Shown: piece by piece, positions 8,850-57,575 of the stretch
How positions within the stretch are numbered: the stretch's first letter is position 1
How the letters are laid out: each line of letters opens with the position of its first letter
DNA from: a virus
Length of the DNA stretch: 57,772 nt
Reading direction: 5' to 3' (one strand)
IMG/VR virus record: IMGVR_UViG_3300032315_000416
Coordinates: 1-57,772 of that record
Translations under genes and position numbers: made by a program
The notes under the pieces: model-generated
Seen by the model: only the letters and a program-made list of their open reading frames with translations
What the model was told of the DNA's origin: nothing
Databases searched by the model: none

Positions 8850-8867
8850 GGTCTTTAAGTAATTTGT

Positions 8868-8906: not shown

Positions 8907-8909
8907 CTG

Positions 8910-15314: not shown

Positions 15315-15329
15315 GGCAATTGTTTCGCC

Positions 15330-19845: not shown

Positions 19846-19864
19846 GGATTTCTCCGTAGCTTAT

Positions 19865-19887
19865 CCTGTATATACTAATGCAAAAAA
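19865..19887 (-). promoter_or_regulatory. Late-type promoter motif, copy 5
   Basis: The minus strand has a six-T run, GCATTAGT (19874-19881), six bases (ATATAC), then AGGAT with +1 predicted at 19867. It drives the glycosyltransferase, fibre and lysis genes. The T-run is shared with the terminator upstream. Confidence 0.75.
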
Positions 19888-19905
19888 CTAGGGATTTGCG
19901 CCCTA
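19882..19905 (-). terminator. Rho-independent terminator overlapping the end of the 130-aa gene
   Basis: On the minus strand TAGGG/CCCTA form a 5-bp stem with a 7-base loop, followed by GTTTTTT. The stem includes the stop codon of the gene at 19903-20295. It closes the long fibre/modification unit. Confidence 0.65.
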
Positions 19906-25308: not shown

Positions 25309-25309
25309 A

Positions 25310-28219: not shown

Positions 28220-29395
28220 TTATGGTGTTATTTTTGCTATGCCTATAGCAGAATCTCTATTTCCTGCAATATTATCCCAAGTTGTTAGCGAACCAACTTG
28301 CACAGGGGAACTGTAGTTTGTTGTATTTCCTAAACCAATCTGTCCATTCGCTCCAGATCCCCAGCCCCATAAAGTGCCGTCAGTTTTGATGGCAAATAAA
28401 CCACTTAAACGAACAGCAATTTTAGACCAATTGGTTAAACTGCCGACTTGTTTGGGGGATGAATAAGACGTTGTGTTTCCAAGACCTAATTGTCCAGAGG
28501 TATTAGCTCCCCATGTCCAGATTGTTCCATCGGATTTAAGTGCAAATGAAAAACTTCCGTGTGCTGCAACATTAGCCCAATTAGTTAGTGACCCCACTTG
28601 TTTGGGGGATGAATAGTTGGTTATATTTCCAAGGCCTAATTGACCGGCTTGATTTCTTCCCCAAGACCATAGTGTGCCGTCTGTTTTTACAGAAATTGTA
28701 TGAAAGCCGCCATTAGCAACTTTGCTCCAGTTTGTAAGAGAACCGATTTGCACAGGTGAATTTACATCAGTAGATCCACCATTACCAATACCCCCAAAAA
28801 GATTTCTGCCCCAAGCCCACAAAGATCCGTCTGTTTTTATTGTGGAGCAGGAATCTAAAACGCAAGAAATATACGCCCAATTTGTTAACGAACCAACTTG
28901 TTTAGGAGAGGAATAAGATGTTGTATTACCAAGACCTAATTGACTATCACTTCCACCACCCCATGTCCAAATAGTGCCGTCTGTTTTAAGTGATAGGCAA
29001 CTAATGCCTCCGCACTGTATTTTTGACCAATTTGTAAGAGAGCCAACTTGTTTTGGTGATGAGTAGTTAGTTAAGTTTCCAAGACCAAGTTGTCCATAAC
29101 TTACATTATTTTGACCCCAGGTCCATAATGTGCCGTCTGTTTTAATAGCGCCAGAAAAATATGAATACCCAGCGGAAACTTCAAGCCAAGTTGTTAAATT
29201 ACCAATTTGTGTTGGTGACGACTTTGATACAGTTGTGCTATCACCAATGCGGCCGTCAGTACCGATTCCCCAAGTGTATAAATAAGGCACAGGAGGGGGT
29301 GGTGGCACAGGCCACTTATTCTGCGCCCGAGCATCAGCAGCTTGGTCTGTTGTCCAGATGCCGCCGTATCTAATGTAGGGAAAAGTTATTGGCAT
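28220..29395 (-). CDS. RCC1 seven-bladed propeller protein (B type, copy 1)
   Basis: A 391-aa protein with seven RCC1 repeats. The start is taken as ATG 29395 (MPITFPY) following the upstream stop as TAATATG, the same junction as at 25308; a longer form needs GTG. The N-terminal anchor-like segment (MPI-FPY-RYGGIW, then a KWPVPPPPP linker) precedes the first blade. Blade 1 (IGTDGRIGDSTTVSKSS) and blade 4 (FGGIGNGGSTDVNS) are the most divergent. Next in the operon is the sulfotransferase-glycosyltransferase fusion. Confidence 0.85.
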   Translation of the reverse strand: MPITFPYIRYGGIWTTDQAADARAQNKWPVPPPPPVPYLYTWGIGTDGRIGDSTTVSKSSPTQIGNLTTWLEVSAGYSYFSGAIKTDGTLWTWGQNNVSYGQLGLGNLTNYSSPKQVGSLTNWSKIQCGGISCLSLKTDGTIWTWGGGSDSQLGLGNTTSYSSPKQVGSLTNWAYISCVLDSCSTIKTDGSLWAWGRNLFGGIGNGGSTDVNSPVQIGSLTNWSKVANGGFHTISVKTDGTLWSWGRNQAGQLGLGNITNYSSPKQVGSLTNWANVAAHGSFSFALKSDGTIWTWGANTSGQLGLGNTTSYSSPKQVGSLTNWSKIAVRLSGLFAIKTDGTLWGWGSGANGQIGLGNTTNYSSPVQVGSLTTWDNIAGNRDSAIGIAKITP

Positions 29396-29396
29396 A

Positions 29397-30545
29397 TTAT
29401 AAGGATAGTGCCATTGACACATATCCGCCGTTTATTTTATCTGGTAGCGCACCCCAGGTGGTTAATGCACCAACTTGTTTTGGAGAGGAGATTCCGGTGT
29501 ATGAGCCAACATTGTCCAAATAGCCTAGTTCACCGAACCTATTTCTACCCCAAGACCAGAGAGTACCATCGGTTTTTGTTGCATAACCATAATAGCCTCC
29601 GCCGGCAACATCTAACCAATTTGTAAGCGCACCAATCTGATTTGGAGAAGATCTGTTAGTAGTGTTTCCGAGACCTAGTTGCCCATAATTATTATATCCC
29701 CAAGACCATAGTGTGCCATCTGTTTTAATAGCAAATACAACTCTTACAGCATTACCTTTTGCTTTTGACCAGTTGGTTAAAGATCCTACTTGTTTTGGTG
29801 ATGAATAATATGTTGTGTTACCTAAGCCTAATTCGCCAAAGCCATTTTGCCCCCAACCCCACAGTGTGCCGTCAGTTTTAACTGCAATAGCAGAGTTTTG
29901 ACTGCCATTTATGTTTGCCCAATTAGTTAGAACTCCAACTTGTTTTGGTGATGAGTATTCTGTTCTGTTGCCTAAGCCTAATTGACCATCACCATTTCGC
30001 CCCCAAGACCATAGAGTACCGTTAGTTTTAACTGCAAAACTACTGTAACCCCCGCAACCAACTTGTAACCAATCTGTTAGTGAACCAACTTGTTTTGGTG
30101 AAGAATAATATGTTAAATTGTTAAGTCCTAGTTGACCGCTATTGTTATTTCCCCATGTCCAAAGTGTGCCGTCAGTTTTTGTTGCAACAGTATGATACCT
30201 AATTGCTATGTTCAACCAATTAGTTAAGGATCCGACTTGTTTTGGGGATGAGTAGTTTGTTCTGTTGCCTAAACCTAATTGCCCACGATTATTAGAACCC
30301 CAAGTCCATAAAGTTCCGTCACTTTTAATAGCTGCACACTGTGTGTCCCCAGTTGAAATTTTTGCCCAATTTGTCAACGATCCAACCTGTTTGGGGGAAG
30401 AATAATTAGTCCTATTTCCTAAACCCAATTGACCACTTGAATTTAATCCCCAAGAATACAAATAATATTGAAAAATGGGTGAGGGGGCGTTAAGCGGATC
30501 AAATGCTCCGTTTTGTAGCCAAGCTCCTGTGTAACGCAGGGACAT
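29397..30545 (-). CDS. RCC1 seven-bladed propeller protein (A type, copy 1)
   Basis: A 382-aa protein with seven RCC1 repeats, the most regular of the four. The start chosen is ATG 30545 (MSLRYTGAW), placed one base after the upstream stop (TAAGATG); the longer form needs TTG. Blade 7 carries an insertion (GYLDNVGSYTG). The DNA repeats between blades and between paralogues are similar enough to support recombination. Confidence 0.85.
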   Translation of the reverse strand: MSLRYTGAWLQNGAFDPLNAPSPIFQYYLYSWGLNSSGQLGLGNRTNYSSPKQVGSLTNWAKISTGDTQCAAIKSDGTLWTWGSNNRGQLGLGNRTNYSSPKQVGSLTNWLNIAIRYHTVATKTDGTLWTWGNNNSGQLGLNNLTYYSSPKQVGSLTDWLQVGCGGYSSFAVKTNGTLWSWGRNGDGQLGLGNRTEYSSPKQVGVLTNWANINGSQNSAIAVKTDGTLWGWGQNGFGELGLGNTTYYSSPKQVGSLTNWSKAKGNAVRVVFAIKTDGTLWSWGYNNYGQLGLGNTTNRSSPNQIGALTNWLDVAGGGYYGYATKTDGTLWSWGRNRFGELGYLDNVGSYTGISSPKQVGALTTWGALPDKINGGYVSMALSL

Positions 30546-30546
30546 C

Positions 30547-30951
30547 TTAGGTGATCGCTTCAAATATTGCTGTATAGGTCAAGGCGTTTGCTGTGCCTGA
30601 CTGTACCGCAAGTGATTGGTTCTCCGTGATGTAGAGGTCTGTAGTCTTATCAACTACGATCAAAGATGCATTGGCTGGTACTGAAATCTGATACGCCAGG
30701 TACGAGATTATGGTAGCCGAGCCAAAGGTTGCATTGTTACCAACCGCTACGGTTGCTGCGGCGGCAGAAGCTGTCGTATTAGACACGATCAAGCCAGTAA
30801 TCTTATGTACCGTGTTAGCGGCTGGGTTAAGACCAGCATCTGCGGTAGTACCGTCAAATGTCCAGCTAGTCGTTACGCCTGTAGTAGACGGAACAACATA
30901 CGCTGTCTGTCCTCTAATTGTGGTTAGTGCTGCAATATTTGGGTTTGCCAT
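30547..30951 (-). CDS. Small beta-rich virion protein
   Basis: A 134-aa protein of Ala/Thr/Val-rich beta sequence (GLIVSNTTASAAAATVAVG). Such short jelly-roll-like proteins are usually head decoration or tail-tip proteins. It starts one base after the collagen-like fibre gene and is followed directly by the first RCC1 gene. No family was recognised; the structural role is inferred from location and composition. Confidence 0.7.
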   Translation of the reverse strand: MANPNIAALTTIRGQTAYVVPSTTGVTTSWTFDGTTADAGLNPAANTVHKITGLIVSNTTASAAAATVAVGNNATFGSATIISYLAYQISVPANASLIVVDKTTDLYITENQSLAVQSGTANALTYTAIFEAIT

Positions 30952-30952
30952 T

Positions 30953-32641
<1,689 letters not shown>

Positions 32642-34460: not shown

Positions 34461-34546
34461 GTTGATTCCTTATCTCAGTGGGTATCCCAAACTGTCTCTG
34501 AGGCGTCTTGCCGGGAAGTGTCGGCAGTCAGAATGGGATTAATCTT

Positions 34547-34569
34547 CCTATACCTACTAATGCAAAAAA
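34547..34569 (-). promoter_or_regulatory. Late-type promoter motif, copy 3
   Basis: The minus strand has a six-T run, GCATTAGT (34556-34563), six bases (AGGTAT), then AGGAA with +1 predicted at 34549. It starts the structural/fibre/modification unit that runs to 19903. The T-run is shared with the terminator upstream. Confidence 0.75.
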
Positions 34570-34583
34570 GCGGATTAATCCGC
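34564..34583 (-). terminator. Rho-independent terminator 2 after the capsid gene
   Basis: A perfect palindrome GCGGATTAATCCGC (34570-34583) is followed on the minus strand by six T. It is the second of two hairpins after the capsid gene and is adjacent to promoter copy 3. Confidence 0.8.
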
Positions 34584-34593
34584 CCCTATAAAA

Positions 34594-38304: not shown

Positions 38305-38496
38305 CTATGTTTCTTCGTCGTCTTCTGTCAAAATTTCATTAATCATGTCTAAAACAATTGTGAATCCCTCATATCGCCCAACGAGGCGCTGGTAGTCTTC
38401 AAATGTATTTACATTCATGCCCGCGGTGACATTGTCCGCTAGGTTGCTACGCTCAGTCTTTACACGACCGATAATTTCGCTTATAAAGTCCTTCAT
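38305..38496 (-). CDS. Small protein, leaderless-type start
   Basis: A 63-aa protein (starts MKDFISEIIG). The ATG at 38496 is exactly the predicted +1 of promoter copy 4 and has no ribosome site upstream, so the mRNA is predicted to be leaderless. An upstream in-frame GTG-type extension would run through the promoter and terminator and is rejected. The product is acidic and helical (RLVGRYEGFTIVLDMINEIL). It is the first gene of the scaffold-capsid unit. The function is unknown. Confidence 0.8.
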   Translation of the reverse strand: MKDFISEIIGRVKTERSNLADNVTAGMNVNTFEDYQRLVGRYEGFTIVLDMINEILTEDDEET

Positions 38497-38515
38497 AATC
38501 TTACTAATGCAAAAA
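38494..38515 (-). promoter_or_regulatory. Late-type promoter motif, copy 4 (leaderless)
   Basis: The minus strand has TTTTT, GCATTAGT (38503-38510), six bases (AAGATT), then ATG (38494-38496) as the start codon of the next gene. The fixed six-base gap places +1 on the A of ATG. Confidence 0.78.
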
Positions 38516-38531
38516 GGCGGACGATTCCGCC
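38511..38531 (-). terminator. Rho-independent terminator after the 69-aa gene
   Basis: A perfect 6-bp stem GGCGGA/TCCGCC with a 4-base loop is followed by TTTTT on the minus strand, 8 bp past the stop of the gene at 38539. It ends the portal unit and is shared with promoter copy 4. Confidence 0.82.
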
Positions 38532-38538
38532 CCAAACA

Positions 38539-41579: not shown

Positions 41580-41608
41580 ATGTCTCTGAATTTGGTGGAT
41601 GTATTTGT

Positions 41609-41630
41609 CCTATACCTACTAATGCAAAAA
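41609..41630 (-). promoter_or_regulatory. Late-type promoter motif, copy 2
   Basis: The minus strand has TTTTT, GCATTAGT (41618-41625), six bases (AGGTAT), then AGGAC with +1 predicted at 41611. It drives the portal unit. Confidence 0.75.
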
Positions 41631-41643
41631 GGAATGCCTTTCC
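41626..41643 (-). terminator. Weak hairpin terminator after the terminase gene
   Basis: A 4-bp stem GGAA/TTCC with a 5-base loop is followed by TTTTT on the minus strand. It lies just past the terminase stop at 41647. The stem is short, so some read-through to the portal gene is likely. Confidence 0.5.
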
Positions 41644-41646
41644 GCC

Positions 41647-43092
41647 CTATTGGGCATAGGGATTTGAATATCTTTTTGCTGCGTCTTCGTCTGCGTAGTC
41701 GTAATCGCGGGCTGGTAGGGGGTCAAGTCGTACCCAACCCGAATCCCGCAATACGCGCAATGCTTGGGACAGGGAGTCAACATAGTCATCGTGCCCGCCT
41801 GCTTCTGGAAACGAACATACCTGCCGGACGAACCGTTTGGCCCAGTCTGCAAAGTCACCTTTGAGCTTCATGTCTTCCGGTATGTACACTTTGCCCTTAG
41901 CTACAAGGGGTGCCACAATGTTAACCCGCTGCACCTTATCTGCGCGCCCAGGGTTGTATCCACGGACAGGTACGCCCGCGCCTTGGAGTTCTTGGATCAG
42001 CGAGATACCAGCGGATTTGTCTTCCATCAGGATCAGGTCGGCTTTACGACCCTTGCCAAACTCGTTATCTGCGCCGTAGACCACTTCCTTAAAGTCATCA
42101 ATTACCTTACGACGCAGCTCGGGGTAGGACATGTGCGCGTCCCATGCATCTAGCAGTATGATCGAAGTGCCTGCGTCTAACTGTTCAAACACGCCCCATA
42201 CCGTACACGCCGTTGGGTCGTTGGTTGTCTTTTCTGAGGTAGCCGGATCGTAGCTGGCGATCACATACTCAAGGTCTGGGGTTGCTCGGTTGGCCGGCCA
42301 CATCCTAAACTGCTTGCGTTTGATAATACCAGCGGCTTCTGGATCCAAGATCTCGCCATAGATCTCTTGTCTGCCTAGGTCTGTGCCATCGTAGGTCTCA
42401 AGCTGTTTGAAAAACGTTTCGGACAGGTTGGCGCGGTTGTCGTACGATGAGGCGTTTGCTACATAAACGTCCCCGCCTACCTTTCCCTCGTTGAGATCAA
42501 CGATGAGCTCTTTGGGCTTGGGAGTGGTGGTAATAATCTGCTGCACTCGAGGGATTCGCGGGTCCTTAAGACGGAGGGTAAACTGTACGCCGTCGTAGGC
42601 ATCATCGATGTAATCGAACGCACACAGCTCGTCGAACCAAGCGCCATGGTACTGCTTACCACGGTACCGTTCTGGCTCGGATGCTGGAATACCTTGGATG
42701 ATGGATCCGTTCGTAAGGGTAATCTCAAAGAGTGACTTGTTGTAATCTCGTATAAGTGACGAGGGGATGATATTAATAAGTCCGGAGTCTCCTTCAAAAC
42801 AAGTTGCGCGTATATCATTTGAGGTAGGGGCTGTGACCAGCCAACGAGTGTTATCGTACATCCAAGCACGAATGCCAATCCAATGACTAGCCGTATGCGT
42901 CTTGCCTGATCCTCGACCAGCCAACATAAGAAACGTATCATACTCTCCATCCTCTGGTTCTCTTTGGTGCGGAAGTGCTTGCAAGTGCCACTTAACCTGC
43001 CATAGGGCAGCATCAAGCTGTTGCTTGGGCCAGTGCTTGTGCGACTCCGCGAATTTTTTAAGTATTGCTTCTTGTTTCGGTGTTAACGACAT
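41647..43092 (-). CDS. terL: Terminase large subunit
   Basis: A 481-aa DNA-packaging motor. The N-terminal ATPase has Walker A LAGRGSGKT (about 57-65) and a GAWFDELCAF Walker B region. The C-terminal RNase H-like nuclease starts with YVIASYDPATSEKTTND, in which the first Asp is a metal ligand, and ends with the GGHDDYVDSLSQALR motif. It is in the Terminase_6 group. There is no intein insertion in this gene although a stand-alone intein-like gene lies directly upstream (10-bp overlap). No small subunit was recognised. Confidence 0.93.
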   Translation of the reverse strand: MSLTPKQEAILKKFAESHKHWPKQQLDAALWQVKWHLQALPHQREPEDGEYDTFLMLAGRGSGKTHTASHWIGIRAWMYDNTRWLVTAPTSNDIRATCFEGDSGLINIIPSSLIRDYNKSLFEITLTNGSIIQGIPASEPERYRGKQYHGAWFDELCAFDYIDDAYDGVQFTLRLKDPRIPRVQQIITTTPKPKELIVDLNEGKVGGDVYVANASSYDNRANLSETFFKQLETYDGTDLGRQEIYGEILDPEAAGIIKRKQFRMWPANRATPDLEYVIASYDPATSEKTTNDPTACTVWGVFEQLDAGTSIILLDAWDAHMSYPELRRKVIDDFKEVVYGADNEFGKGRKADLILMEDKSAGISLIQELQGAGVPVRGYNPGRADKVQRVNIVAPLVAKGKVYIPEDMKLKGDFADWAKRFVRQVCSFPEAGGHDDYVDSLSQALRVLRDSGWVRLDPLPARDYDYADEDAAKRYSNPYAQ

Positions 43093-44099
43093 GGTATGAA
43101 CCCTTCTCCTACGAGAATGTGATTGAACTTACCCTCAGTTTCGATGTACACACAAGACTGGGGGTTAAGTGGCTCAATTAATTTGGGGTACCGCCTGCCA
43201 AGCTGGATTTTAGTTTTCGATAAATCTTGGTTGGGTACCAAATCGAGCTTTGATTTAAAAAAAAGTATGTAGTTCGAACAACGTTGGTTGTGTTCCAAGG
43301 TAGTTTTACTACCCAGTGATTCGATTATAGACTGAACCTGCACCAAGAGTCGCAAATTTTTACTGGAAACCCGAAATATATTCTTTTGTCTGGAGTATTG
43401 CCGGCTTTTTGCTGCTAAGATGCCTTGCAACAGCTCAATACGCTGCTCTTCGGACGCCAAGAGGTAATTGTTTGGTATTTTGGTAGGCACATTGGGTGCC
43501 AATTGCAACTCAATCGATGGCGAAACCGTAAAGTACCGCTCGTTGTTGGGTGTTTTAGCGCCCACAATGACTTTGTACCCACAATCCTTGAAGCGCTGTA
43601 TGATCTCTTCCTGCCGATTCTTACTAAAGATCATTTTATTGTGTAATTTTCTATTAAAAAACCAATAGCCAAACACAAATGGAGGGATAGGCAGCGTTTG
43701 ATGGGGGAGTTTTAACGGATGGGCAGTAGGAACCGATATCAATCGTATTCCAGGGACCTTCTTTAGCGGCCTGTCTTTCAGTTTGTCTACCGTTATGTCG
43801 CCTAACGGACGCCTAAACTTAAACCTGCCCTTATACAGCGACACCCTACAGCGGTACTTGTGGTTCTCAAACGGGAAGTTGAGCTTCTCGTCGCCCGAAA
43901 CAGTAAGGTGGTCGTTGAAGGTAACCTGATAGCAGTTCTCCGCACGGTACTTCTGTACCAGGGTTACTTTAACTAGGTCGCCAGTTTGATTAAATACATA
44001 ATCGCCAACCTGAATCTTCTCTGCTGGCTTCCAGTAGTCAAGCGTTAGTACTTTTTCCGTTGCTAATATTGCCATAAAAATTCTCGAGGACCCATTCAT
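43083..44099 (-). CDS. Stand-alone degenerate intein-like (Hint + LAGLIDADG) protein
   Basis: A 338-aa protein with an intein's layout but no splicing residues. The Hint N-half (about 11-85) has EKVLTLDYWKPAEKIQVGDYVF and CYQVTFNDHLTVSGDEKLNF, where the first-position Cys is replaced by Ala/Thr and the TxxH His is replaced. The centre resembles a two-motif LAGLIDADG nuclease with both acidic motifs lost: FGYWFFNRK in place of a GYWLGDG motif, and EEQRIELLQGILAAKSRQ in place of an LLQGLMDTDG motif. The C-terminus (KFNHILVGEGFIPCR) lacks the intein His-Asn. It is probably a domesticated intein beside terminase. An alternative start is ATG 44075. The function is unknown. Confidence 0.8.
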   Translation of the reverse strand: MNGSSRIFMAILATEKVLTLDYWKPAEKIQVGDYVFNQTGDLVKVTLVQKYRAENCYQVTFNDHLTVSGDEKLNFPFENHKYRCRVSLYKGRFKFRRPLGDITVDKLKDRPLKKVPGIRLISVPTAHPLKLPHQTLPIPPFVFGYWFFNRKLHNKMIFSKNRQEEIIQRFKDCGYKVIVGAKTPNNERYFTVSPSIELQLAPNVPTKIPNNYLLASEEQRIELLQGILAAKSRQYSRQKNIFRVSSKNLRLLVQVQSIIESLGSKTTLEHNQRCSNYILFFKSKLDLVPNQDLSKTKIQLGRRYPKLIEPLNPQSCVYIETEGKFNHILVGEGFIPCR

Positions 44100-44346
44100 C
44101 CAGCCATCGCCCTAACGGCGCTCGTATTTTGTTTTGAACCGATACGGGTAGCTTTTGGATGTTCATGGTTTCCGTGGTGATATTTAAACGGAACTCAATG
44201 TACCGAGCCGTCTCTTTGTCTAGGATTTCCATGGGTACGTCTACCGAATCGAGATTGTATAAGTCGCATACCAATACCCGCAATCCTTGGAACTGGCCTG
44301 TAGCGCTTTCTAGCGCTCCTTGAATTTGATATGCGTACTTACTCAT
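44038..44346 (-). CDS. First late gene, unknown function (possible packaging accessory)
   Basis: A 102-aa protein. The ATG at 44346 coincides with the predicted +1 of promoter copy 1 and no ribosome site precedes it, so the mRNA is predicted leaderless. It overlaps the intein-like gene by 62 bp. The product is mixed alpha/beta and acidic (LDKETARYIEFRLNITTETMN). The position before terminase is where a small terminase subunit would be expected, but no DNA-binding helix-turn-helix is visible, so that role is only a suggestion. Confidence 0.7.
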   Translation of the reverse strand: MSKYAYQIQGALESATGQFQGLRVLVCDLYNLDSVDVPMEILDKETARYIEFRLNITTETMNIQKLPVSVQNKIRAPLGRWLDEWVLENFYGNISNGKSTNA

Positions 44347-44363
44347 ACTTTAACTAATGCAAA
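44344..44363 (-). promoter_or_regulatory. Late-type promoter motif, copy 1 (leaderless, first late promoter)
   Basis: The minus strand has TTT, GCATTAGT (44353-44360), six bases (TAAAGT), then ATG (44344-44346) as the start codon. It is the most upstream late promoter. The T-run is shorter than in the other copies and there is no terminator hairpin before it, as expected when no gene precedes it. Confidence 0.76.
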
Positions 44364-44417
44364 CAATGCCAGTAAAGCGTCCCACATTGTAAAAATATAA
44401 GTTGACTCTGTCCCCTT

Positions 44418-44635
44418 TTGTCAGGATTGTCAGGGTAGTACGGGTCTATTCCAGTTGTGACCGCCACTACGTTTTTTATTTTTTAAAATTAAAATAAAAA
44501 GAAGAATAGACCCGTACTACTAGTACTACCCTGACAATCGTATTCTAAGTTGTTGTTTTGTTTAGCTGCAAATGAGAATGATTCTCATTAACTGTGTCAG
44601 GGTAGTATGGATGCAGTGCAGCATTTCATAATGCG
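44418..44635 (+). repeat. Long repeat copy A with three TGTCAGGGTAGTAYGG sites and a Fur-like box
   Basis: This shares an unbroken layout with 51222-51430: a direct 18-mer TGTCAGGGTAGTACGGGT (44428-44445); an AT-rich spacer with TTTTTTATTTTTT; the same site inverted (44511-44536, with a small internal duplication, so the pair forms a large stem-loop); the palindrome AATGAGAATGATTCTCATT (44571-44589); and a third direct site TGTCAGGGTAGTATGG (44595-44610). The spacer has drifted between the two copies while the sites are conserved, which points to binding-site function. Candidate roles are origin, operator or packaging signal. Confidence 0.85.
44571..44589. promoter_or_regulatory. Fur-box-like palindrome, copy A
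   Basis: The 19-bp perfect palindrome AATGAGAATGATTCTCATT matches the Fur 7-1-7 form (TGAnAATnATTnTCA). It is conserved in the second repeat copy with only the central base and its neighbour changed, keeping the palindrome. Fur is the iron-sensing repressor of many Gram-negative bacteria; binding here is inferred from sequence only. It is followed 5 bases later by the third TGTCAGGGTAGTATGG site. Confidence 0.65.
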
Positions 44636-49978: not shown

Positions 49979-50148
49979 CCATACTCGGCACAATTATATG
50001 TTTTCTCGCTGGGTATGGTTTAACCGTACAAATTACACTAGAGGGCATTCTATGGCTAGCATTCGGCGCGTTTCTCGTATCGCCAAAGACTTACTTACAG
50101 GCGATTGTAAAACTAAATGAGCAAAGGGGAAAACGACATACTAAGTGA
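49975..50148 (+). CDS. Two-TM small membrane protein
   Basis: A 57-aa protein with two hydrophobic segments (about 3-21 and 24-44) followed by a basic tail NEQRGKRHTK. The start overlaps the previous stop (ATGA) and its 3' end overlaps the sigma-factor start by 32 bp, so the two are co-translated. Its role is unknown; the coupling to the sigma gene is worth noting. Confidence 0.7.
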   Translation: MTILGTIICFLAGYGLTVQITLEGILWLAFGAFLVSPKTYLQAIVKLNEQRGKRHTK

Positions 50149-50695
50149 CTACCTGCTTGCGCTTTATGGCACAGAACCATTGAGCGTAGAACAGGAGCAC
50201 GCACTCGCTAAACAAATTGCCAAGGGTGATAGAGCGGCACTAAACAAACTGGTAAAGCATAATCTACGGTTTGTAATCTACTTAGTGCGTAAACTGTCGG
50301 CATGGCAGTACAGTAAAGTGCCGGTGGAGGACATTCTTAGCATGGGCAACGAGGCCTTATTCATGGCCGCTAGATCATGGACGCCGGCCAATAATTCCAG
50401 TTTCGTTACCTATGCCAAGCCCTATATTCTGCGCGGCGTAAAGCGAGAGCTAAACAACACGGAGAATTTAATCCGCCTGCCAGTCAACATCATGCTAAAT
50501 ATCAAGACGCTAAAGTATAGAGAGCGGGTGCTATCCCAAAAATTATGCCGGCAACCGACCGATGCGGAATTGTCGGCCGCTACAGGTTTTTCTGAAGGCC
50601 GTATCAATGAATTGAAAAATCATATGGCTAGAGAGCCCATATTTCGCAATGAACTTAAAAACGAAGAGCATTTTGAGGAGAAGCATGATGACTGA
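50117..50695 (+). CDS. Sigma-70 family sigma factor lacking region 4
   Basis: A 192-aa RNA polymerase sigma factor. Region 1.2-like helix begins EQEHALAKQIAKGDRAAL. Region 2 runs about 40-112, with HNLRFVIYLVRKL, VPVEDILSMGNEALFMAARSW, SFVTYAKPYILRGVKREL. Region 3 (about 117-170) opens IRLPVNIML and holds RQPTDAELSAATGFSEGRI. It ends after about 20 more residues, so region 4, which contacts the -35 box, is absent. A region-2/3-only sigma would read an extended -10 element without -35, like the repeated motif on the late strand. It overlaps the membrane protein gene. Confidence 0.92.
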   Translation: MSKGENDILSDYLLALYGTEPLSVEQEHALAKQIAKGDRAALNKLVKHNLRFVIYLVRKLSAWQYSKVPVEDILSMGNEALFMAARSWTPANNSSFVTYAKPYILRGVKRELNNTENLIRLPVNIMLNIKTLKYRERVLSQKLCRQPTDAELSAATGFSEGRINELKNHMAREPIFRNELKNEEHFEEKHDD

Positions 50696-50969
50696 TGTGC
50701 AAAAGAGAGCATATGACCGTTTTATTCGGATTCGCAATCAGATACGGGATTCGAATGAATGGATACCGGCCAAAGATGTGCTTAGGACGGTAGATGTAGT
50801 CGGAATGAACCATCCGCTCTTTGAGATGAATGATTTGTACTTGGAATACCAAGAAGCATTTCGGGATTGGCTAGCGGTAGAGCCAGAGTACCGTAAAGTA
50901 GAGCGTATGAGTGCTATACGGGGTGATTATGGAGTAGCAGATACTTGGGAGAAACCAATTGCAGAATAG
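50685..50969 (+). CDS. Uncharacterised early protein
   Basis: A 94-aa helical protein starting MMTDVQKRAYDRFIRIR at ATG 50685, with GGAG 5 bases upstream; an earlier in-frame start would lie inside the sigma gene. It has PAKDVLRTVDVVGMNHPLFE and a C-terminal basic/acidic tail. It overlaps the sigma gene stop by 11 bp. Function unknown; its coupling to the sigma gene leaves open a role as a sigma partner or regulator. Confidence 0.72.
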   Translation: MMTDVQKRAYDRFIRIRNQIRDSNEWIPAKDVLRTVDVVGMNHPLFEMNDLYLEYQEAFRDWLAVEPEYRKVERMSAIRGDYGVADTWEKPIAE

Positions 50970-51165
50970 TAAGGTGGCAGTACCAGCAGACATATACAAC
51001 AAAGACGGCCAACTGGTCAAGATCGAGTTCACTACCCCATCCGGCGAGCATATTATAGACGCCATGTGGGATGCTAGCGAGGAACAGACCAGTGAAAACA
51101 GGGTAAAGTTCAGGGAATGGGCATACCGCATGATTAAACAAAAGGACTATGAAGTAAAGACATAA
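50959..51165 (+). CDS. Small protein (TTG start)
   Basis: A 68-aa protein from TTG 50959 with GGGAG 7 bases upstream; no in-frame ATG is available near the start. It reads MQNSKVAVPADIYNKDGQL, then an acidic beta-helix and WAYRMIKQKDYEVKT. It is the last gene before the second long repeat. The function is unknown. Confidence 0.65.
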   Translation: MQNSKVAVPADIYNKDGQLVKIEFTTPSGEHIIDAMWDASEEQTSENRVKFREWAYRMIKQKDYEVKT

Positions 51166-51221
51166 AGCTATTAAGAATCATTCGCATTTGGAGTACCAAG
51201 AATCAAGGACTTACAGCATCA

Positions 51222-51430
51222 TTGTCAGGATTGTCAGGGTAGTACGGGTTAATTCCAGTTGGGGCCTCCCTTACGTTTTTTATTTTTTTAAATAAAAAGA
51301 AAAAAGAGAGATAGACCCGTACTACTAGTACTACCCTGACACACATAATCTAAGTGCTTGATTTTTGGTCCGCCAAATGAGAATCATTCTCATTAACTGT
51401 GTCAGGATAGTATGGATGCACTGCAACATA
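51222..51430 (+). repeat. Long repeat copy B, upstream of the primase-helicase gene
   Basis: Same layout as the repeat at 44418-44635: direct TGTCAGGGTAGTACGGGT (51232-51249), AT-rich spacer, inverted site (51315-51341), palindrome AATGAGAATCATTCTCATT (51376-51394), and TGTCAGGATAGTATGG (51400-51415). It ends 24 bp before the primase-helicase start. The two direct copies bracket the 6.6-kb set of small early genes. Possible functions are an operator/promoter set or an origin. The 288-bp gap between 51166 and 51454 holds nothing else. Confidence 0.85.
51376..51394. promoter_or_regulatory. Fur-box-like palindrome, copy B
   Basis: The 19-bp palindrome AATGAGAATCATTCTCATT matches the Fur 7-1-7 form. 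The central base differs from copy A, but the palindrome is retained. It sits 61 bp before the primase-helicase start, a place where a bound repressor would block transcription. A phage protein may use the site instead of Fur. Confidence 0.65.
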
Positions 51431-51454
51431 TAAAAACCAATATACAATACACCT

Positions 51455-53761
51455 ATGAAACCAACAACACTACCAGTCCTGTTTGAAAATATACCCATGG
51501 AGCTCAAGCGCGTGCCTAGATGGGTACTGTGGCAATTTGTGCAAGTCGGCAGTGAGGGCAATCAGCGATGGTCAAAGCTGCCCACACAAGTAACAGGCCA
51601 ATCTGCCTCCTCAACCAACCCAGCAACCTGGTCAGACTTCTTGACCGTCCAAGCCGCGTATCAGGCCGATCCAGAGCGCTTCAGTGGCGTGGGCTTTGTG
51701 TTTTCCGAAGACGACGATTTAGTAGGCATCGACTTAGACGATGTGTATGATCACCACACCAACCGTTTCATAAATGCTGCAATGCAGCAATTAGCCCATA
51801 ACGTCCAAGGGTACATGGAGGTCAGCCCGTCCGGCACAGGCGTTAAGATATTCACCCGCTCCCAGCCATTCGCCTCGCATGCCGACCATGCCATTGGATT
51901 CGAGGCCTACTCCAAGGGGCGTTTCTTTACGGTCACCGGCCAATACATCTCCGGTACTATCCCCGAAGAGCTCCAAGACTTGACCAGTATCATACCCGCT
52001 CGAACCATGCGGCAGACTGGTGATGCGTTTGAGGACTACAACCCACCAGTGGCCGGATATGACATCCATCGCATCGAGACCGAGATACTAGCCAAGCTAG
52101 ATCCCGAGTGTGGTTACCATGAGTGGCTACGCATCGGGGCGATTCTGCACCACCAGTCCGGCGGTGACGTAGAGATGCTAGAGGCATGGGATAGATGGTC
52201 AGCTCAGGGCTCATCGTACACCGACAGTGGCGATTACTCCTGTGAGGCTAAGTGGAAGACATTCAAAGGGTCAGGCGCGACTCTGCGCTCACTGATATTC
52301 ATCATCAACCAACAGGATCGCCAGGAGTCGCTAGATCGCGGTGAGATTATCCTGGATAACGGGGCAATGAACCATGCCCGTACATTCCTAGATAATTTCT
52401 TTTCTTCTGAGGAAGGGTACAGATTAGTTCACTATGCGCAGGAGTTCTATCTGCACTGCACGACGCATTACGAGATCATCGAAGAGGCCACCATCCGTGC
52501 CAAACTGTACGCGTTCTTAGACAAGTGCAAGAAGGCAGGCAAGCAGGGCGCGTTAACACCATTCAACCCTGCACCGGCTACAGTCAGCGCGGCACTGGAC
52601 GCGATCAAGTCGATCACGCACTTACCCAATCACGCCAACACCAAGCCGCCTATTTGGCTAGATCAGTACGCAGCAAATAAACCCGATGCTGCTAAGTTAA
52701 TCTCGCTTAAGAACGGCCTGTTTCACTTGGAGGATTCGTTACTCATACCGCACTCACTGGGATTCTTTACGCAGAACTCGCTGCCATTCGCTTACAACCA
52801 AGGCGCAGACTGCCCGACATGGATTCAGTTCTTGCAGTCGGTATGGCCTAATGATCCTGAGTCGATTGCCTGCCTGCAAGAGATGTTTGGTTACATCATC
52901 TCCGGCGACACAAGGCAGCAGAAATTCTTTAACTTAATTGGACCACGCAGGTCAGGCAAAGGCACAATCAACAAGGTGCTCGTTGACATCCTTGGCCAGC
53001 ACAATACCGTCGCACCACAACTGGAGGAGCTCTGTGACACATTCGGACTACAACCATGGCTGGGTAAACTACTTGCTTCTTTTACCGACGCTCGCGCTCC
53101 TGAGCGTAATCGTAGTGCTGTGGTGTCTCAGTTACTGCGGATTGTGGGCGGCGATACGGTTACAGTCAATCGTAAAAACAAAGACGCATGGAACGGCTAC
53201 CTCCCAACGCGAATCGTAATCTACTCCAATGAGGCATTGCAGCTAACAGAGAACTCTAATGCGCTCACCGGCCGTATGCTGGTGCTTAAGATGACTAGAT
53301 CGTTTTACGGCCAAGAAGATACCGACCTGTCACACAAGCTATCCGCGGAGCTGTCGGGTATCTTTAACTGGGCAATGGAAGGACTCAAACGTCGCTTAGC
53401 ACGCGGCGGCCACTTCATCCAGCCTAAGACCGGCGTTGAGCTGATCGAGCTCATGGCGCAGTTAGGTAACCCGATCGGATCGTTTATTGAAGATGCATTA
53501 GTGTTTGAACCAGAGGCAGAGGTATCGAAGTACGATGTGTTTTTGTGTTATAAACACTGGGCAGTCAAGAAGAACATCGTGCCAGGTACAGAGCTCGCAT
53601 TTAAACGTCGTTTCTTGGCAGCAGCACAGGAGCATTTTATTGAATCAGGACTAGATCGTACGTCGGGCAATCGTACCCACATTTACCGCGGCGTAAAATT
53701 AAATCAGAAGGCACAGAAATACATTGATGACAACATTACATTTGACGAAGGAGTATTTTAA
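51455..53761 (+). CDS. Primase-polymerase/D5-type SF3 helicase
   Basis: A 768-aa replication protein. The N-terminal primase-polymerase-like domain (about 15-170) has the acidic strand GIDLDDVYD (91-99) and SPSGTGVKIF (124-133). A PriCT-like segment runs about 208-285 (HEWLRIGAILHHQSGGDVEML). The C-terminal half is a D5_N/SF3 helicase with Walker A IGPRRSGKGT (about 495-504), then FTDAR as Walker B, a VNRKNKDAW sensor strand and MLVLKMTRSFYG. It opens DNA and makes primers, so it initiates replication. It follows repeat copy B. Confidence 0.93.
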   Translation: MKPTTLPVLFENIPMELKRVPRWVLWQFVQVGSEGNQRWSKLPTQVTGQSASSTNPATWSDFLTVQAAYQADPERFSGVGFVFSEDDDLVGIDLDDVYDHHTNRFINAAMQQLAHNVQGYMEVSPSGTGVKIFTRSQPFASHADHAIGFEAYSKGRFFTVTGQYISGTIPEELQDLTSIIPARTMRQTGDAFEDYNPPVAGYDIHRIETEILAKLDPECGYHEWLRIGAILHHQSGGDVEMLEAWDRWSAQGSSYTDSGDYSCEAKWKTFKGSGATLRSLIFIINQQDRQESLDRGEIILDNGAMNHARTFLDNFFSSEEGYRLVHYAQEFYLHCTTHYEIIEEATIRAKLYAFLDKCKKAGKQGALTPFNPAPATVSAALDAIKSITHLPNHANTKPPIWLDQYAANKPDAAKLISLKNGLFHLEDSLLIPHSLGFFTQNSLPFAYNQGADCPTWIQFLQSVWPNDPESIACLQEMFGYIISGDTRQQKFFNLIGPRRSGKGTINKVLVDILGQHNTVAPQLEELCDTFGLQPWLGKLLASFTDARAPERNRSAVVSQLLRIVGGDTVTVNRKNKDAWNGYLPTRIVIYSNEALQLTENSNALTGRMLVLKMTRSFYGQEDTDLSHKLSAELSGIFNWAMEGLKRRLARGGHFIQPKTGVELIELMAQLGNPIGSFIEDALVFEPEAEVSKYDVFLCYKHWAVKKNIVPGTELAFKRRFLAAAQEHFIESGLDRTSGNRTHIYRGVKLNQKAQKYIDDNITFDEGVF

Positions 53762-53762
53762 A

Positions 53763-53915
53763 ATGACGGATCAAGAACAAGAATTTGCATTTGCACTAGC
53801 CGCTGTAATGGGGTTGGTGGCTCGAGGCGCAACGCCAGCAGAGGTGCGCGACACAGCATGGCTCTATGCACAGTTTGCGATGCTGGGTAAGCCAGTATGT
53901 GAAGACACAAAATGA
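53763..53915 (+). CDS. Small protein
   Basis: A 50-aa acidic protein (MTDQEQEFAFALAAVMGLVARG) starting at ATG 53763, 1 bp after the helicase stop, with GAAGGAG upstream. The helical start (FAFALAAVMGLVA) is semi-hydrophobic. The longer upstream frame is excluded since it would run inside the helicase gene. The function is unknown. Confidence 0.72.
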   Translation: MTDQEQEFAFALAAVMGLVARGATPAEVRDTAWLYAQFAMLGKPVCEDTK

Positions 53916-54514
53916 AAGCCATCGTCATTGCCACAGTGGATGGTAAGTGCATACCGGTACTATCTAAAAGCATAGAGATGTATGTGCCAGATAGTGTAGA
54001 AGTTATCATCCACAAAAACAACGCCGGCAACTTTGGCGATGCGTACAACCACATCGTCAACAAGGCGTTTATGTCACACGACGAGATTATTGTGGCCAAT
54101 GACGACATCGTGCTAAATCCGGACAGCTACCGTAAGTTGCTGGAGGATGTTAACTACCTTACACAACAAAAAATTAAGCTAGGCTGGTTGGTGGCAAGAA
54201 CGGACTACGCAAGGCCCAACCAACAGTTTTTTCATTTAGATCCAAACTTAATCCATGCAGCACAACGTTGCTCACCGCTGTTTGGTTACGTACACATACA
54301 GGCATGGATAGACTACCCACCGATTAACTGGTACTCGGACGACATCCAGTGCATTGACATGGCCAGCAAAGGGTACCAACACTTTGTATCCAGGTCGTAC
54401 GTGCACCATGTAGGCAGCCAAACGATTGGCATGGACAACCAAAAGAACCACCTTGACTCTGAGCAATGGATCAGGGATAATAGGCCAGAACTACACCGTG
54501 AATGGTACAAGTGA
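53912..54514 (+). CDS. Glycosyltransferase, GT-A fold (GT2-like)
   Basis: A 200-aa enzyme. MKAIVIATVDGKCIPVL gives the first strand; NNAGNFGDAYNHIV is nucleotide-binding; VANDDIVLNP (about 61-70) holds the DxD-like metal site; WYSDDIQCIDMASKGYQHFVSR and YVHHVGSQTIG match the acceptor region of GT2-like proteins. It lies inside the replication module, away from the fibre-modification genes, coupled to neighbours on both sides (4-bp overlap at the start). A nucleotide or DNA-base acceptor is a real option. The substrate is unknown. Confidence 0.83.
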   Translation: MKAIVIATVDGKCIPVLSKSIEMYVPDSVEVIIHKNNAGNFGDAYNHIVNKAFMSHDEIIVANDDIVLNPDSYRKLLEDVNYLTQQKIKLGWLVARTDYARPNQQFFHLDPNLIHAAQRCSPLFGYVHIQAWIDYPPINWYSDDIQCIDMASKGYQHFVSRSYVHHVGSQTIGMDNQKNHLDSEQWIRDNRPELHREWYK

Positions 54515-54515
54515 T

Positions 54516-54635
54516 ATGAGCTTCACCATCTACCAAGCAAACGGCCTTCGCTGCATTCAATGGTTCCCAAATATAGAGACCCTGATAGCACACATGATTA
54601 AAAACCCTAACGATAGGTACCATAGAAACGTATGA
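54516..54635 (+). CDS. Small protein
   Basis: A 39-aa protein (MSFTIYQANGLRCIQWFPN start, NPNDRYHRNV end), starting one base after the glycosyltransferase stop and overlapping the next gene start (ATGA). A longer frame would be inside the glycosyltransferase gene and is rejected. Function unknown. Confidence 0.6.
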   Translation: MSFTIYQANGLRCIQWFPNIETLIAHMIKNPNDRYHRNV

Positions 54636-55237
54636 AGAAAAAGGCACCGTACTACATTGCAGACACTGGGCACTTTGGTATCAAGATCAAGGTGTGCTTT
54701 GATGATGCGTCATTCCAGCAGGCCGTGCGCGATTCCAAGATAACAACCCGCCATCAGTCACTTGATATTGGCCTGGCGGAATCGCACTTCATCGAACAAG
54801 AAGGCACCATGCACGCCATGCTGGCCATCGTGTTTAATTTTGATGAGATGGAAAAGTGCGACGCGTTAGAGCGCATGGGCGTTATCTACCATGAGGTATC
54901 GCACACAGTCACCCATGTGTTTGAGTACATTGGCGAGGACGAGCAAAAGATTGGTGATGAGTCGCGTTCGTATTTAGGCGAGCACATTTTCAAGCAAGTA
55001 TTTTCGATCTATGCAACAGAGGAAGACAAACGTGAGCGTACTAGAGAAAGAAATAGAAAGTCACCTGACAAAGAAAATCAAGCAGTTATCGGGGCTCTCA
55101 TTCAAATGGCAGAGCAGCGTGACGGGGGTGCCGGATCGGATAGTATTCTTGAATCAGAAAGCGTATCTAGTCGAACTAAAAACAGCAACAGGGGTTCTAA
55201 GTCCAAGACAAGTCGTCGTGTTCGACGAACTGGGTGA
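54632..55237 (+). CDS. HExxH metallopeptidase-like phage protein
   Basis: A 201-aa protein. The zincin-like motif HEVSH (87-91) is followed by an Asp/Glu-rich helix with GDESRSYLGEHIFKQ, where E110 is the likely third zinc ligand. The size and order (a strand domain, then a HEVSH helix and a YLGEHI helix) match small HExxH phage proteins of unknown substrate. From about residue 133 the tail is low-complexity Ser/Arg/Lys-rich and lies entirely over the next gene (206 bp overlap), so the tail is either an extension after a lost stop or a true overlap. Confidence 0.75.
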   Translation: MKKKAPYYIADTGHFGIKIKVCFDDASFQQAVRDSKITTRHQSLDIGLAESHFIEQEGTMHAMLAIVFNFDEMEKCDALERMGVIYHEVSHTVTHVFEYIGEDEQKIGDESRSYLGEHIFKQVFSIYATEEDKRERTRERNRKSPDKENQAVIGALIQMAEQRDGGAGSDSILESESVSSRTKNSNRGSKSKTSRRVRRTG

Positions 55238-55310
55238 GCAAGGCTTCCCAGTACATATTCTTCGAAGCAAAGAAGACGTCGAGGATTTTATTGAGGGCGC
55301 TTTAGCATGA
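55032..55310 (+). CDS. VRR-NUC family nuclease
   Basis: A 92-aa nuclease from GTG 55032 (GAGGAAG is 6 bases upstream); an in-frame ATG at 55011 without a strong site is the alternative. VSVLEKEIESHLTKKIKQL then the catalytic core GVPDRIVFLNQKAYLVELKT, with D and E-x-K in the PD-ExK-like arrangement, and HILRSKEDVEDF. VRR-NUC proteins cut branched or looped DNA in recombination and replication. It overlaps the metallopeptidase-like gene in another frame. Confidence 0.85.
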   Translation: MSVLEKEIESHLTKKIKQLSGLSFKWQSSVTGVPDRIVFLNQKAYLVELKTATGVLSPRQVVVFDELGEQGFPVHILRSKEDVEDFIEGALA

Positions 55311-55312
55311 TA

Positions 55313-55333
55313 TTTTGCATTAGTAGTAGTAGA
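55313..55333 (+). promoter_or_regulatory. Late-type promoter motif on the plus strand, copy 8
   Basis: The plus strand has TTTT, GCATTAGT (55317-55324), six bases (AGTAGT), then AGAGG with +1 predicted at 55331. It is the only plus-strand copy, 7 bp after the VRR-NUC stop and 88 bp before the HNH gene, so HNH, SNF2 helicase and the region-4-like protein can be expressed late. It is not preceded by a terminator hairpin. Confidence 0.7.
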
Positions 55334-55411
55334 GGAAGCGAAAAGGTTTGCAAGCCCTGTTTGTGCCGTTAACACAAACTAGCGCCTCTACTATCAACTA
55401 CTTTAACGGAG
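55327..55411 (+). promoter_or_regulatory. Structured leader of the HNH gene
   Basis: TAGTAGAGG (55327-55335) can pair with CCTCTACTA (55385-55393), and GTTTGTG/CACAAAC (55360-55380) form an inner hairpin. Further pairing reaches the ACTACT just before the GGAG ribosome site at 55408. Only read-through transcripts carry the full left arm; RNA started at 55331 lacks most of it. Confidence 0.5.
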
Positions 55412-55418
55412 TATCAAA

Positions 55419-56078
55419 ATGAAACGACTCAATCCCACCACAGGTTTACCTTTTAAATCCGGAGACATACGAGAAGACGGCCGAGTATTTAACCAATACC
55501 GTTGCAGTAAATTAGATAAAAATGGATTTTTTAAAGAATGTTGGTTAACTCCCGAATCGCATAAGAGAGCTAGATTTGATTGTCAATCCGGCGATACAAG
55601 GACGATTTCAAATTTCTCAATTAATTTATTACATTCCGCAATAGGAAGATGCAAAGGAAGTCCGGCAAGAACCAAATCAGGAAGACCACCAACAAATGGA
55701 AAGGTTACTATAGATAAACAGTGGATATTGGATCGCTTAGAAAAAGGAATTTGTGAAGCGACAGGAGATAAATTAACAATTTTACCTAGAAAAAATAACA
55801 CGGCCTCATTGGATAGGGTAGATAGTAATAATCCAGATTACACACCAGAAAATTGCAGAATAGTTACTTGGCAGTATAATAATATGCGGGGCGCGTATAC
55901 TGATGAAGAATTTATCGCCGTAGCTGAGAAGGTTAAAAATGTTAAAAAGAAATCAATTACATCCCTATCAATTAGCAATAGTGGAAAAAGCCAAAACAAC
56001 TCCGAACATAGGGCTTCTGCTTTGCCCGGGTTTGGGCAAGACGACGACCACCCTCACCATCATTGCGGAACAATTTAA
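55419..56078 (+). CDS. HNH endonuclease (putative free-standing homing type)
   Basis: A 219-aa protein with the HNH-like core ASLDRVDSNNPDYTPENCRIVTWQYNNMRG (as two halves, about 129-142 and 143-158), preceded by a basic DNA-binding stretch (RCKGSPARTKSGRPPTNG) and a CEATGDKLTIL segment. The AGT-rich leader precedes it and ACGGAG is the ribosome site. Its last about 46 residues lie over the SNF2 helicase start in another frame and end without a domain (SNSGKSQNNSEHRAS), so the gene may be an insertion with a run-on 3' end. Confidence 0.8.
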   Translation: MKRLNPTTGLPFKSGDIREDGRVFNQYRCSKLDKNGFFKECWLTPESHKRARFDCQSGDTRTISNFSINLLHSAIGRCKGSPARTKSGRPPTNGKVTIDKQWILDRLEKGICEATGDKLTILPRKNNTASLDRVDSNNPDYTPENCRIVTWQYNNMRGAYTDEEFIAVAEKVKNVKKKSITSLSISNSGKSQNNSEHRASALPGFGQDDDHPHHHCGTI

Positions 56079-57273
56079 AGGCAAGACACTGATCATCGCG
56101 CCCAAACGGGTAGCAGAGACAGTATGGGACACCGAGGTAAAGAAGTGGGAGCACCTAGCACACCTAAAAGTCAGCAAGATAATGGGAACGCCTACGGCAA
56201 GATTGTCAGCTATGAAGAGCTCTGCAGACATATATTTGGTAAACCTTGAGAACGTGGCATGGCTTTGTAGCCTTTCAGATAAGTTAGTGTTCACTAACTT
56301 AGTAATAGATGAATCCAGCCGGTTTAAGGATTCAAGCACCAAGCGTTTTAAGGCACTTAAGAAGCATTTAAAGGGCTTCTCACGGCGTTTAATCTTAACG
56401 GGTACACCCACCCCTCAAAGCATGCAGGATTTATGGTCCCAGGTTGGTATATTGGACTTAGGAGAGCGTTTGGAGACGTCCCTGACCAAGTTCCGCGACA
56501 AGTACATGCAGCCAGACCAAATGAACCGGCATACCCGAGTAGTTTACTCGTGGAAGCTGCAGCCAGGCGCGGATCTAATATTGAATCAAAAGATATCGGA
56601 TATCTGCTATAGCCTCAAGGCCGAGGATTACCTGCAGCTGCCGGAGTGTACCAAGCTGTACCACAGTATTGAATTAGATAAAAACGTAAGGGGTCAGTAT
56701 GAACAACTTAAGAAAGACATGGTCGCTGATATCAAGGGGGAAAGGATTACAGCTCCAACAGCAGCAACACTTGCGGGGAAACTCATCCAGTTCACATCAG
56801 GCTCAGTGTATGATGAACAAGGTGAAGCACACGAAGTACATCGTTCTAAGCTGGAACGTCTTGAGTCGATCATGGAGGAATCTAGCTCCCCGACACTCGT
56901 ATTCTATCATTTCAAACACGCACTTCAGAAGTTACGCTTGGCTTTCCCCGAGGCGGTGGTGCTGGATGACGACAACATTGAGGCGTGGCGTGATGGCAAA
57001 ATTCGTATGCTCCTTGCCCACCCCCAGTCAGGAGGAATTGGCCTTAATCTACAGTGCAACGTTGGAGACACAGCACAAACAGTGTGGTTCGACCTCCCCT
57101 GGTCCTCTGAGAACTATATCCAGGCGAACGCCCGGATTTACCGCCAAGGGCAAGAAAAGCCGGTTATCATACACCATCTAACGGTGGCCAAGAGTATTGA
57201 TGAGCATGTAGTAAAAGTATTAGAAGGTAAAATTAACTTACAGGAAGCCTTGCTGGACTCGCTAGTAATATGA
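55939..57273 (+). CDS. SNF2-type DEAD/DEAH helicase
   Basis: A 444-aa superfamily 2 ATPase. Q-motif-like LHPYQ (7-11), Walker A GLGKTTT (31-37), motif II DESS (124-127), motif III LTGTPTPQ (about 150), and motifs V-VI GGIGLNLQ and QANARIYRQGQ near 360-400. It is a compact SNF2-type motor, common in phages, and may remodel protein-DNA complexes or branch structures in replication and recombination. The HNH gene overlaps the first 140 bp; the VRR-NUC gene lies just upstream of HNH. Confidence 0.9.
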   Translation: MLKRNQLHPYQLAIVEKAKTTPNIGLLLCPGLGKTTTTLTIIAEQFKGKTLIIAPKRVAETVWDTEVKKWEHLAHLKVSKIMGTPTARLSAMKSSADIYLVNLENVAWLCSLSDKLVFTNLVIDESSRFKDSSTKRFKALKKHLKGFSRRLILTGTPTPQSMQDLWSQVGILDLGERLETSLTKFRDKYMQPDQMNRHTRVVYSWKLQPGADLILNQKISDICYSLKAEDYLQLPECTKLYHSIELDKNVRGQYEQLKKDMVADIKGERITAPTAATLAGKLIQFTSGSVYDEQGEAHEVHRSKLERLESIMEESSSPTLVFYHFKHALQKLRLAFPEAVVLDDDNIEAWRDGKIRMLLAHPQSGGIGLNLQCNVGDTAQTVWFDLPWSSENYIQANARIYRQGQEKPVIIHHLTVAKSIDEHVVKVLEGKINLQEALLDSLVI

Positions 57274-57575
57274 CAAATATACACAAAATTAAAGCGGTAA
57301 CCCCGCGTCTCTCGGATGAGGATCCAGATCCATTGGAGCAAGACGACGCGCCAGACGGATACCATTTATTACAAGAGGGCTGGCTTATTTGGGATGCCGA
57401 TGATATAATTGATATTCGTAAAATAATTGATACCAAGATGCCAACAAAGCAGCGGTTTGTTTTGGAGGCGTTTCTCAACGGTAATTCGTATTACGACATT
57501 GGAGTCAGTGAAAAGTATTGGCGGTATCACTTTGCCAAGGGCATTGAGTTTATTAAAAAGGAGCTAGAGCTATGA
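57270..57575 (+). CDS. Sigma region-4-like protein (possible second sigma subunit)
   Basis: A 101-aa protein. The acidic N-terminus (about 15-45) is followed by MPTKQRFVLEAFLNGNSYYDIG then VSEKYWRYHFAKGIEFIKK (57-98), which reads as sigma region 4: a helix ending in 'L-x-x-x-x-R-x-V-L-x-A-F-L-x-G-x-S-Y', then a helix-turn-helix. Region 4 normally binds the -35 box and the beta flap. The phage's other sigma protein lacks exactly this part. It overlaps the helicase stop by 4 bp. DNA binding is not shown; other HTH roles are possible. Confidence 0.75.
   Translation: MTNIHKIKAVTPRLSDEDPDPLEQDDAPDGYHLLQEGWLIWDADDIIDIRKIIDTKMPTKQRFVLEAFLNGNSYYDIGVSEKYWRYHFAKGIEFIKKELEL

Follow-up and report, generated by a model that had tools for sequence, protein, structure and literature searches.

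In the 57,772-base record of an uncultured virus (IMG/VR record IMGVR_UViG_3300032315_000416, referred to below as the window), we identified a candidate phage sigma factor whose domains are distributed between two genes. P0001 is a sigma-70 family protein that, like all its close relatives, lacks region 4, and a separate small protein, P0002, is predicted to have a region 4-like fold. The two genes co-occur in the related viruses, as far as enough flanking DNA is available, and the promoter motif of the family is bipartite, with a GGGCG element that stands at an invariant distance from the -10 element and is found preferentially on the late strand. We consider it probable (at about 0.6) that P0001 and P0002 each form one half of a phage sigma factor acting on host RNA polymerase, with P0002 serving as the region 4 that reads GGGCG and so switching on the late promoters. 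A split sigma factor had been proposed in the initial annotation of this DNA, and that proposal is backed by the family-wide lack of region 4 in the sigma protein, the separate region 4-like protein, and their co-occurrence without a counterexample.

The two proteins and their genes

The two genes and the sources of their assignments are as follows.

50117 to 50695, plus strand: P0001, sigma-70 family protein with regions 1.2, 2, and 3 (Pfam, PHROG, PDB, and NCBIfam searches, relatives, AlphaFold2 model, and Foldseek)
57270 to 57575, plus strand: P0002, separate region 4-like protein (family alignment, AlphaFold2 model, Foldseek searches of PDB and viral structures, Pfam matches of family members, and hhalign)

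P0001 consists of 192 amino acids (aa), and its chain ends within the first part of region 3.2. Region 2 matches PF04542 (Sigma70_r2) with 25 bits against the curated cutoff of 24, the matches to Sigma70_r3 and r1.2 are below the threshold, and Pfam finds no region 4 on the chain. A phmmer comparison with SigB gives 7.7e-14; the SigB, SigA, and RpoS chains and many NCBIfam sigma models align to P0001 from region 1.2 to region 3, not beyond, and the PHROG 351 family of ordinary phage-encoded sigma factors aligns over residues 15 to 174. The AlphaFold2 model resembles sigma structures across regions 1.2 to 3, with Foldseek E-values down to 1.8e-9. Thus, both sequence and fold searches, along with Pfam, bear out the earlier description of this protein as a sigma-70 factor with regions 1.2, 2, and 3 but no region 4. 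The same truncation is seen in 77 of 77 distinct full-length relatives (188 to 226 aa as called), in which the chain ends 18 to 20 residues past the last EP motif of region 3, so that none has a region 4, unlike the ordinary sigma factors of PHROG 351.

P0002, a protein of 101 aa whose gene overlaps the end of a SNF2-type helicase gene, combines an acidic conserved N-terminal motif (P12 to E23) with a C-terminal four-helix domain (residues 43 to 98). Several hundred relatives are encoded in viral contigs, immediately after the same helicase gene. Across an alignment of 29 members, P12, L14, E17, D20, and E23 in the acidic motif and F68, G71, E81, K82, R85, Y86, and H87 in the C-terminal domain do not vary. 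Searches with P0002 alone return no match in Pfam, PHROG, NCBIfam, or PDB sequences, and a profile search of PDB sequences found nothing meaningful. However, 9 of the 29 family members match Sigma70_r4_2 (best E-value of 2e-4, under the curated cutoff; the best relative reaches 21.3 bits, with the cutoff at 25.7), and each of the other Pfam families is matched by at most 3 members. In the AlphaFold2 model, residues 42 to 98 have a predicted local distance difference test score of ~95. About 36 of the 50 PDB matches listed by Foldseek for this model are sigma factors, the best of which are isolated region 4 domains, such as region 4 of SigR (1.9 Å over 59 columns; probability, 0.96) and domain 4 of SigW (1.7 Å over 49). 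Across these region 4 structures, template modeling scores to the target reach 0.69 and probabilities reach 0.96, with E-values of 0.5 or worse; a Foldseek search of the viral structure library gives the same sigma-dominated picture. The initial annotation had read this protein as region 4 alone, a reading that stands at the level of the family and the fold but not at the level of the P0002 sequence itself. P0002 is region 4-like and probably a true relative of region 4, although not provable as a member of the Pfam family. In one relative, an additional P0002-like gene (L096, positions 2425 to 2730; also in L044, L200, and L398), diverged to 34% identity with P0002, lies close upstream of the sigma gene; used as a query, the L096 protein matched its own record only.

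Co-occurrence of the two genes was assessed in loci with enough flanking DNA, and no counterexample was found among them. The sigma gene is present in 36 of 36 P0002 loci with >12 kb upstream, and P0002 is found in the locus in 77 of 84 cases in which the sigma gene is followed by >9.9 kb. Six of the remaining 7 loci have P0002 further along the same record, in one of them as a partial open reading frame (ORF) at the contig end, and the seventh is on a contig with no P0002 match in ~10.3 kb downstream, which is approximately the distance of the P0002 gene in a near-identical relative. The sigma-to-P0002 distance ranges from 5.8 to 11.2 kb. Both genes are absent from phages that share the portal and structural module but have a different early region. 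Such structural-module relatives were considered as a source of a fused sigma factor and rejected, with Caulobacter phage RW, Roseobacter CRP-902, Pelagibacter HTVC027P, and MW202545 all carrying neither gene.

Profile searches did not place P0002 in an unrelated helix-turn-helix (HTH) family, the outcome that the initial annotation had set against its proposal, although LuxR-type HTHs score nearly as high as region 4. The hhalign probability is 59 over 50 columns for region 4 and 50 over 38 columns for the LuxR-type control, both hand-entered reference sets being usable as yardsticks only. P0002 could accordingly be an unrelated tetrahelical LuxR-like regulator tied to the helicase and replication block, with P0001 working alone, and the overlap of its gene with the helicase gene, not the sigma gene, is in keeping with such a role. 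Nevertheless, sigma region 4 stands far higher than response regulators in the Foldseek rankings, the region 4 alignment includes one helix more than the LuxR alignment, and P0002 is missing along with the sigma gene from the phages that share just the structural module, all of which makes this option quite improbable.

Promoter elements and promoter classes

The window contains 8 copies of a TTTGCATTAGT-like sequence, 7 of them on the late strand. GGGCG begins exactly 21 nucleotides (nt) upstream of TGCATTAGT in 7 of these copies, and the eighth has GGACG; the probability of such a placement by chance is ~1e-19, with 60 offsets allowed for.

8867 to 8907, minus strand: late promoter copy; GGGCG, 16 nt, TGCATTAGT, TGTAGGA
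15291 to 15331, minus strand: late promoter copy; GGGCG, 16 nt, TGCATTAGT, TATAGGG
19864 to 19904, minus strand: late promoter copy; GGGCG, 16 nt, TGCATTAGT, TACAGGA
34546 to 34586, minus strand: late promoter copy upstream of capsid-region genes; GGGCG, 16 nt, TGCATTAGT, TATAGGA
38493 to 38533, minus strand: late promoter copy; GGGCG, 16 nt, TGCATTAGT
41608 to 41648, minus strand: late promoter copy upstream of the portal gene; GGGCG, 16 nt, TGCATTAGT, TATAGGA
44343 to 44383, minus strand: the most upstream late promoter copy; GGACG (4 of 5 bases), 16 nt, TGCATTAGT
55294 to 55334, plus strand: early-strand promoter copy with GGGCG, overlapping the end of a VRR-NUC-like nuclease gene

The late motif had previously been described as a -10-type element with no -35, and the upstream element contradicts that description. 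In 122 nonredundant copies from the family, GGGCG is found at -21 in 60 and elsewhere in 1. Matches to TTTTTTGCATTAGT in viral contigs outside the family were excluded from these statistics because many look like chance, and Rfam and tRNA scans returned nothing. Three clades of the family (A, B, and C) have different -10 elements, TGCATTAGT, TGCATTATT, and TGCGTATTAGT, but the distance from the start of GGGCG to the start of ATTAGT or ATTATT is 24 nt in all three, despite 2 extra bases after TGC in clade C. TATAGGA is likewise conserved at +12 to +18 of the copies that have GGGCG, and transcription may start at the A of TAGGA (+15). With that start, ATTAGT would occupy positions -12 to -7, TG positions -15 and -14 (an extended -10), and GGGCG positions -36 to -32.

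The downstream TATAGGA resembles the start region of T7 promoters, which would fit transcription by a phage single-subunit (T7-type) RNA polymerase. That interpretation was rejected as extremely improbable: PF00940 is found in none of 15 family records (the T7 positive control gives 1e-109), and it is a sigma gene, instead of a T7-type polymerase gene, that is conserved. Likewise, there might be no -35 element at all and GGGCG might be merely the 5' arm of hairpins that terminate the preceding operon, since a hairpin with a T-run behind it does form at several copies, for instance GGGGCGGATTAATCCGCTTTTTT at 34544 to 34586. However, a CGCC or GCCC 3' arm is present in only 6 of the 60 GGGCG copies, the folding energy is almost nil in 22 of the 60, and the distance to the -10 element is kept in the face of the 2 inserted bases in clade C, where the position of a hairpin would be less fixed. 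We have rejected this explanation, too, as very improbable.

The promoter copies fall into two classes. In the eight clade A records, GGGCG (4 or 5 of 5 bases) accompanies 32 of 32 late-strand copies and 8 of 26 early-strand copies (Fisher test, 3.5e-9). A -10 copy is located just upstream of 43 of 121 P0002 homologues, with GGGCG in none of the 43. Many of the -10-only copies (in L030, L096, L125, L143, L164, and others) have a palindrome similar to TTTCACATTGTGAAA near the -35 region, ~33 nt upstream, perhaps an operator for another regulator. Noncoding DNA of two relatives contains numerous copies of GTTTAAAC, 30 in G002 and 26 in G009, both strands counted.

Sigma relatives show clade-fixed differences in regions 2.3, 2.4, and 3.0 where the -10 element differs: in clade B, position 98 changes from T to G or A and position 92 from N to K, A, or G, and in clade C, position 109 changes to E, 124 to K, and 126 to R. 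Residues 79 to 88 of P0002, its would-be recognition helix, have no clade-fixed difference, and GGGCG is likewise constant. As far as sequences can tell, this pattern fits P0001 reading the -10 element and P0002 reading the -35 element.

The main rival to P0002 as the reader of GGGCG is a combination in which P0002 is a gp33-like flap coactivator that contacts DNA nonspecifically and a different phage activator, MotA-like and of class II, reads GGGCG at the -35 position. Activators at this position are known with extended -10 promoters from T4 middle transcription, the P0002 HTH is ~4 residues short in the alignments, and in approximately half of the promoter copies, another upstream sequence takes the place of GGGCG. 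Yet the DNA-facing half of the would-be recognition helix (E81, K82, R85, Y86, and H87) is invariant even in the 34%-identical paralogue, which would be odd for a nonspecific flap binder. In addition, the spacing of GGGCG is that of sigma region 4 and constant in the three clades, and none of the other small early proteins scanned is region 4-like or HTH-like, leaving no other candidate among them. We therefore regard such an activator as unlikely and P0002 as the putative reader of GGGCG.

Proposed mechanism and genome context

In the mechanism that we propose, P0001 would bind the core enzyme through region 2 and read the phage -10 element, which is of the extended type (TGnATTAGT) in the clade of the window. 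P0001 alone would serve the -10-only promoters, mostly on the early or replication strand. P0002, a free region 4, would occupy the beta flap and jointly with P0001 recognize GGGCG at the -35 position. Promoters with both elements, including every late-strand copy of clade A, would thus fire once P0002 is present. With the P0002 gene behind a -10-only copy in many relatives, a two-step cascade could result. A further version, to which we would give somewhat less than even odds, is a phage-wide two-tier sigma factor: the region 4-less sigma would serve -10-only promoters by itself, among them the promoter for its own missing region 4, which as a free protein would then convert it to a -35-dependent late sigma.

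Several observations weigh against assigning the two promoter elements to the two halves of one sigma factor. Only three -10 clades are available, and the covariation with sigma is therefore confounded with phylogeny, which alone could yield the pattern; the P0002 helix and GGGCG are both invariant, so that no covariation is visible and there is no direct link between them. Enrichment of GGGCG on the late strand is less marked in clade B (6 of 9) and clade C (2 of 7). The P0002 gene of the window has no -10 copy directly upstream, and the cascade step is therefore not visible there. None of the Foldseek PDB E-values for P0002 is significant despite the high probabilities, and the profile match to region 4 is weak and almost equalled by the LuxR-type HTHs. 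The ~4 residues missing in the alignments to both region 4 and LuxR lie between the two HTH helices of P0002, and so short a linker may weaken or alter DNA binding. Finally, since the two genes are part of one conserved syntenic block, their co-occurrence is consistent with a functional pair but is no proof of one and says little on its own.

If the proposal is correct, a widespread group of uncultured freshwater phages, with several hundred contigs in IMG/VR, uses the two promoter-reading domains of sigma as separable subunits, and addition of the second subunit in trans is the switch from middle to late transcription. In the two-tier version, a single sigma would gain a second promoter class through a domain added in trans. 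Native promoters that have a -35 element, paired with ones that lack it, would then offer a natural test of the contribution of region 4 to initiation. To our knowledge, this would be the first phage case of a separate flap subunit that is region 4-like and works with promoters that keep a -35 element; a literature search, with most subscription papers outside its coverage, found no description of such a split phage sigma.

The contig begins within a DNA polymerase A gene (positions 1 to 931) and ends just past P0002 (57572 to 57772), which suggests a genome that was cut within its replication block. In the cellular genome collection, P0002 matches only L358, a phage-like contig binned in a betaproteobacterial metagenome-assembled genome, a weak hint of the host that is too thin for an assignment. 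Four tail-region ORFs (24157 to 26434 and 28220 to 30563) consist of ~50-aa repeats (YSWGxNxxGQLGLG) with a 150-bp period, similar to RCC1 repeats. A collagen-like GPTGPTG repeat protein with a DNA period of 9 bp is encoded at 30953 to 32641. The ORF at 43083 to 44099, immediately upstream of the large terminase gene, contains a Hint/intein-like sequence near its N terminus with no Pfam match and may reflect an interrupted terminase gene. Two early-side noncoding stretches (44472 to 44631 and 51277 to 51436) carry a 160-nt direct repeat, 81% identical.

Comparison with known two-part systems

The pair described here resembles SigO/RsoA more than T4 gp55/gp33. As MacLellan et al. are said to have reported in 2009, SigO/RsoA splits the -10 and -35 functions of sigma over two proteins, with -35 recognition kept; in our pair, a split of the domains is seen, and a division of these functions between the chains is probable. 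In Bacillus subtilis, region 4 is contributed by SigO, and RsoA, encoded beside it, is a small partner that is region 2-like. In the phage, by contrast, regions 1.2 to 3 are all on the large protein, the region 4-like part is the small one, and ~6 to 11 kb separate the two genes. SigO-RsoA is listed as one factor of 22.5 and 9.0 kDa, with a domain column that is ambiguous as to which half is which (PMC10141391). No match to SigO/RsoA surfaced in the NCBIfam scan, no search having been aimed at SigO or RsoA.

With T4, the likeness consists of a phage sigma without region 4 and a second small protein, both serving late promoters. The late promoters of T4 have no conserved -35 element, gp33 is structurally unrelated to sigma region 4, and late transcription also needs the sliding clamp gp45 (PMC7892883). 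In contrast, an element at the -35 position is conserved here with invariant spacing, and the P0002 model resembles region 4, which speaks against the initial view of P0002 as a T4 gp33-like flap coactivator at late promoters lacking a -35. Phage SPO1, a Gram-positive myophage and in that respect different, likewise uses two phage proteins, gp33 and gp34, for its late promoters. The middle and late sigma factors of SPO1 have been named gp28 and gp34 (PMC9429907). Two-part sigma factors are already known in kind; relative to both T4 and SigO/RsoA, the present case stands apart by its division of the domains and by the presence of two promoter classes within a single phage.

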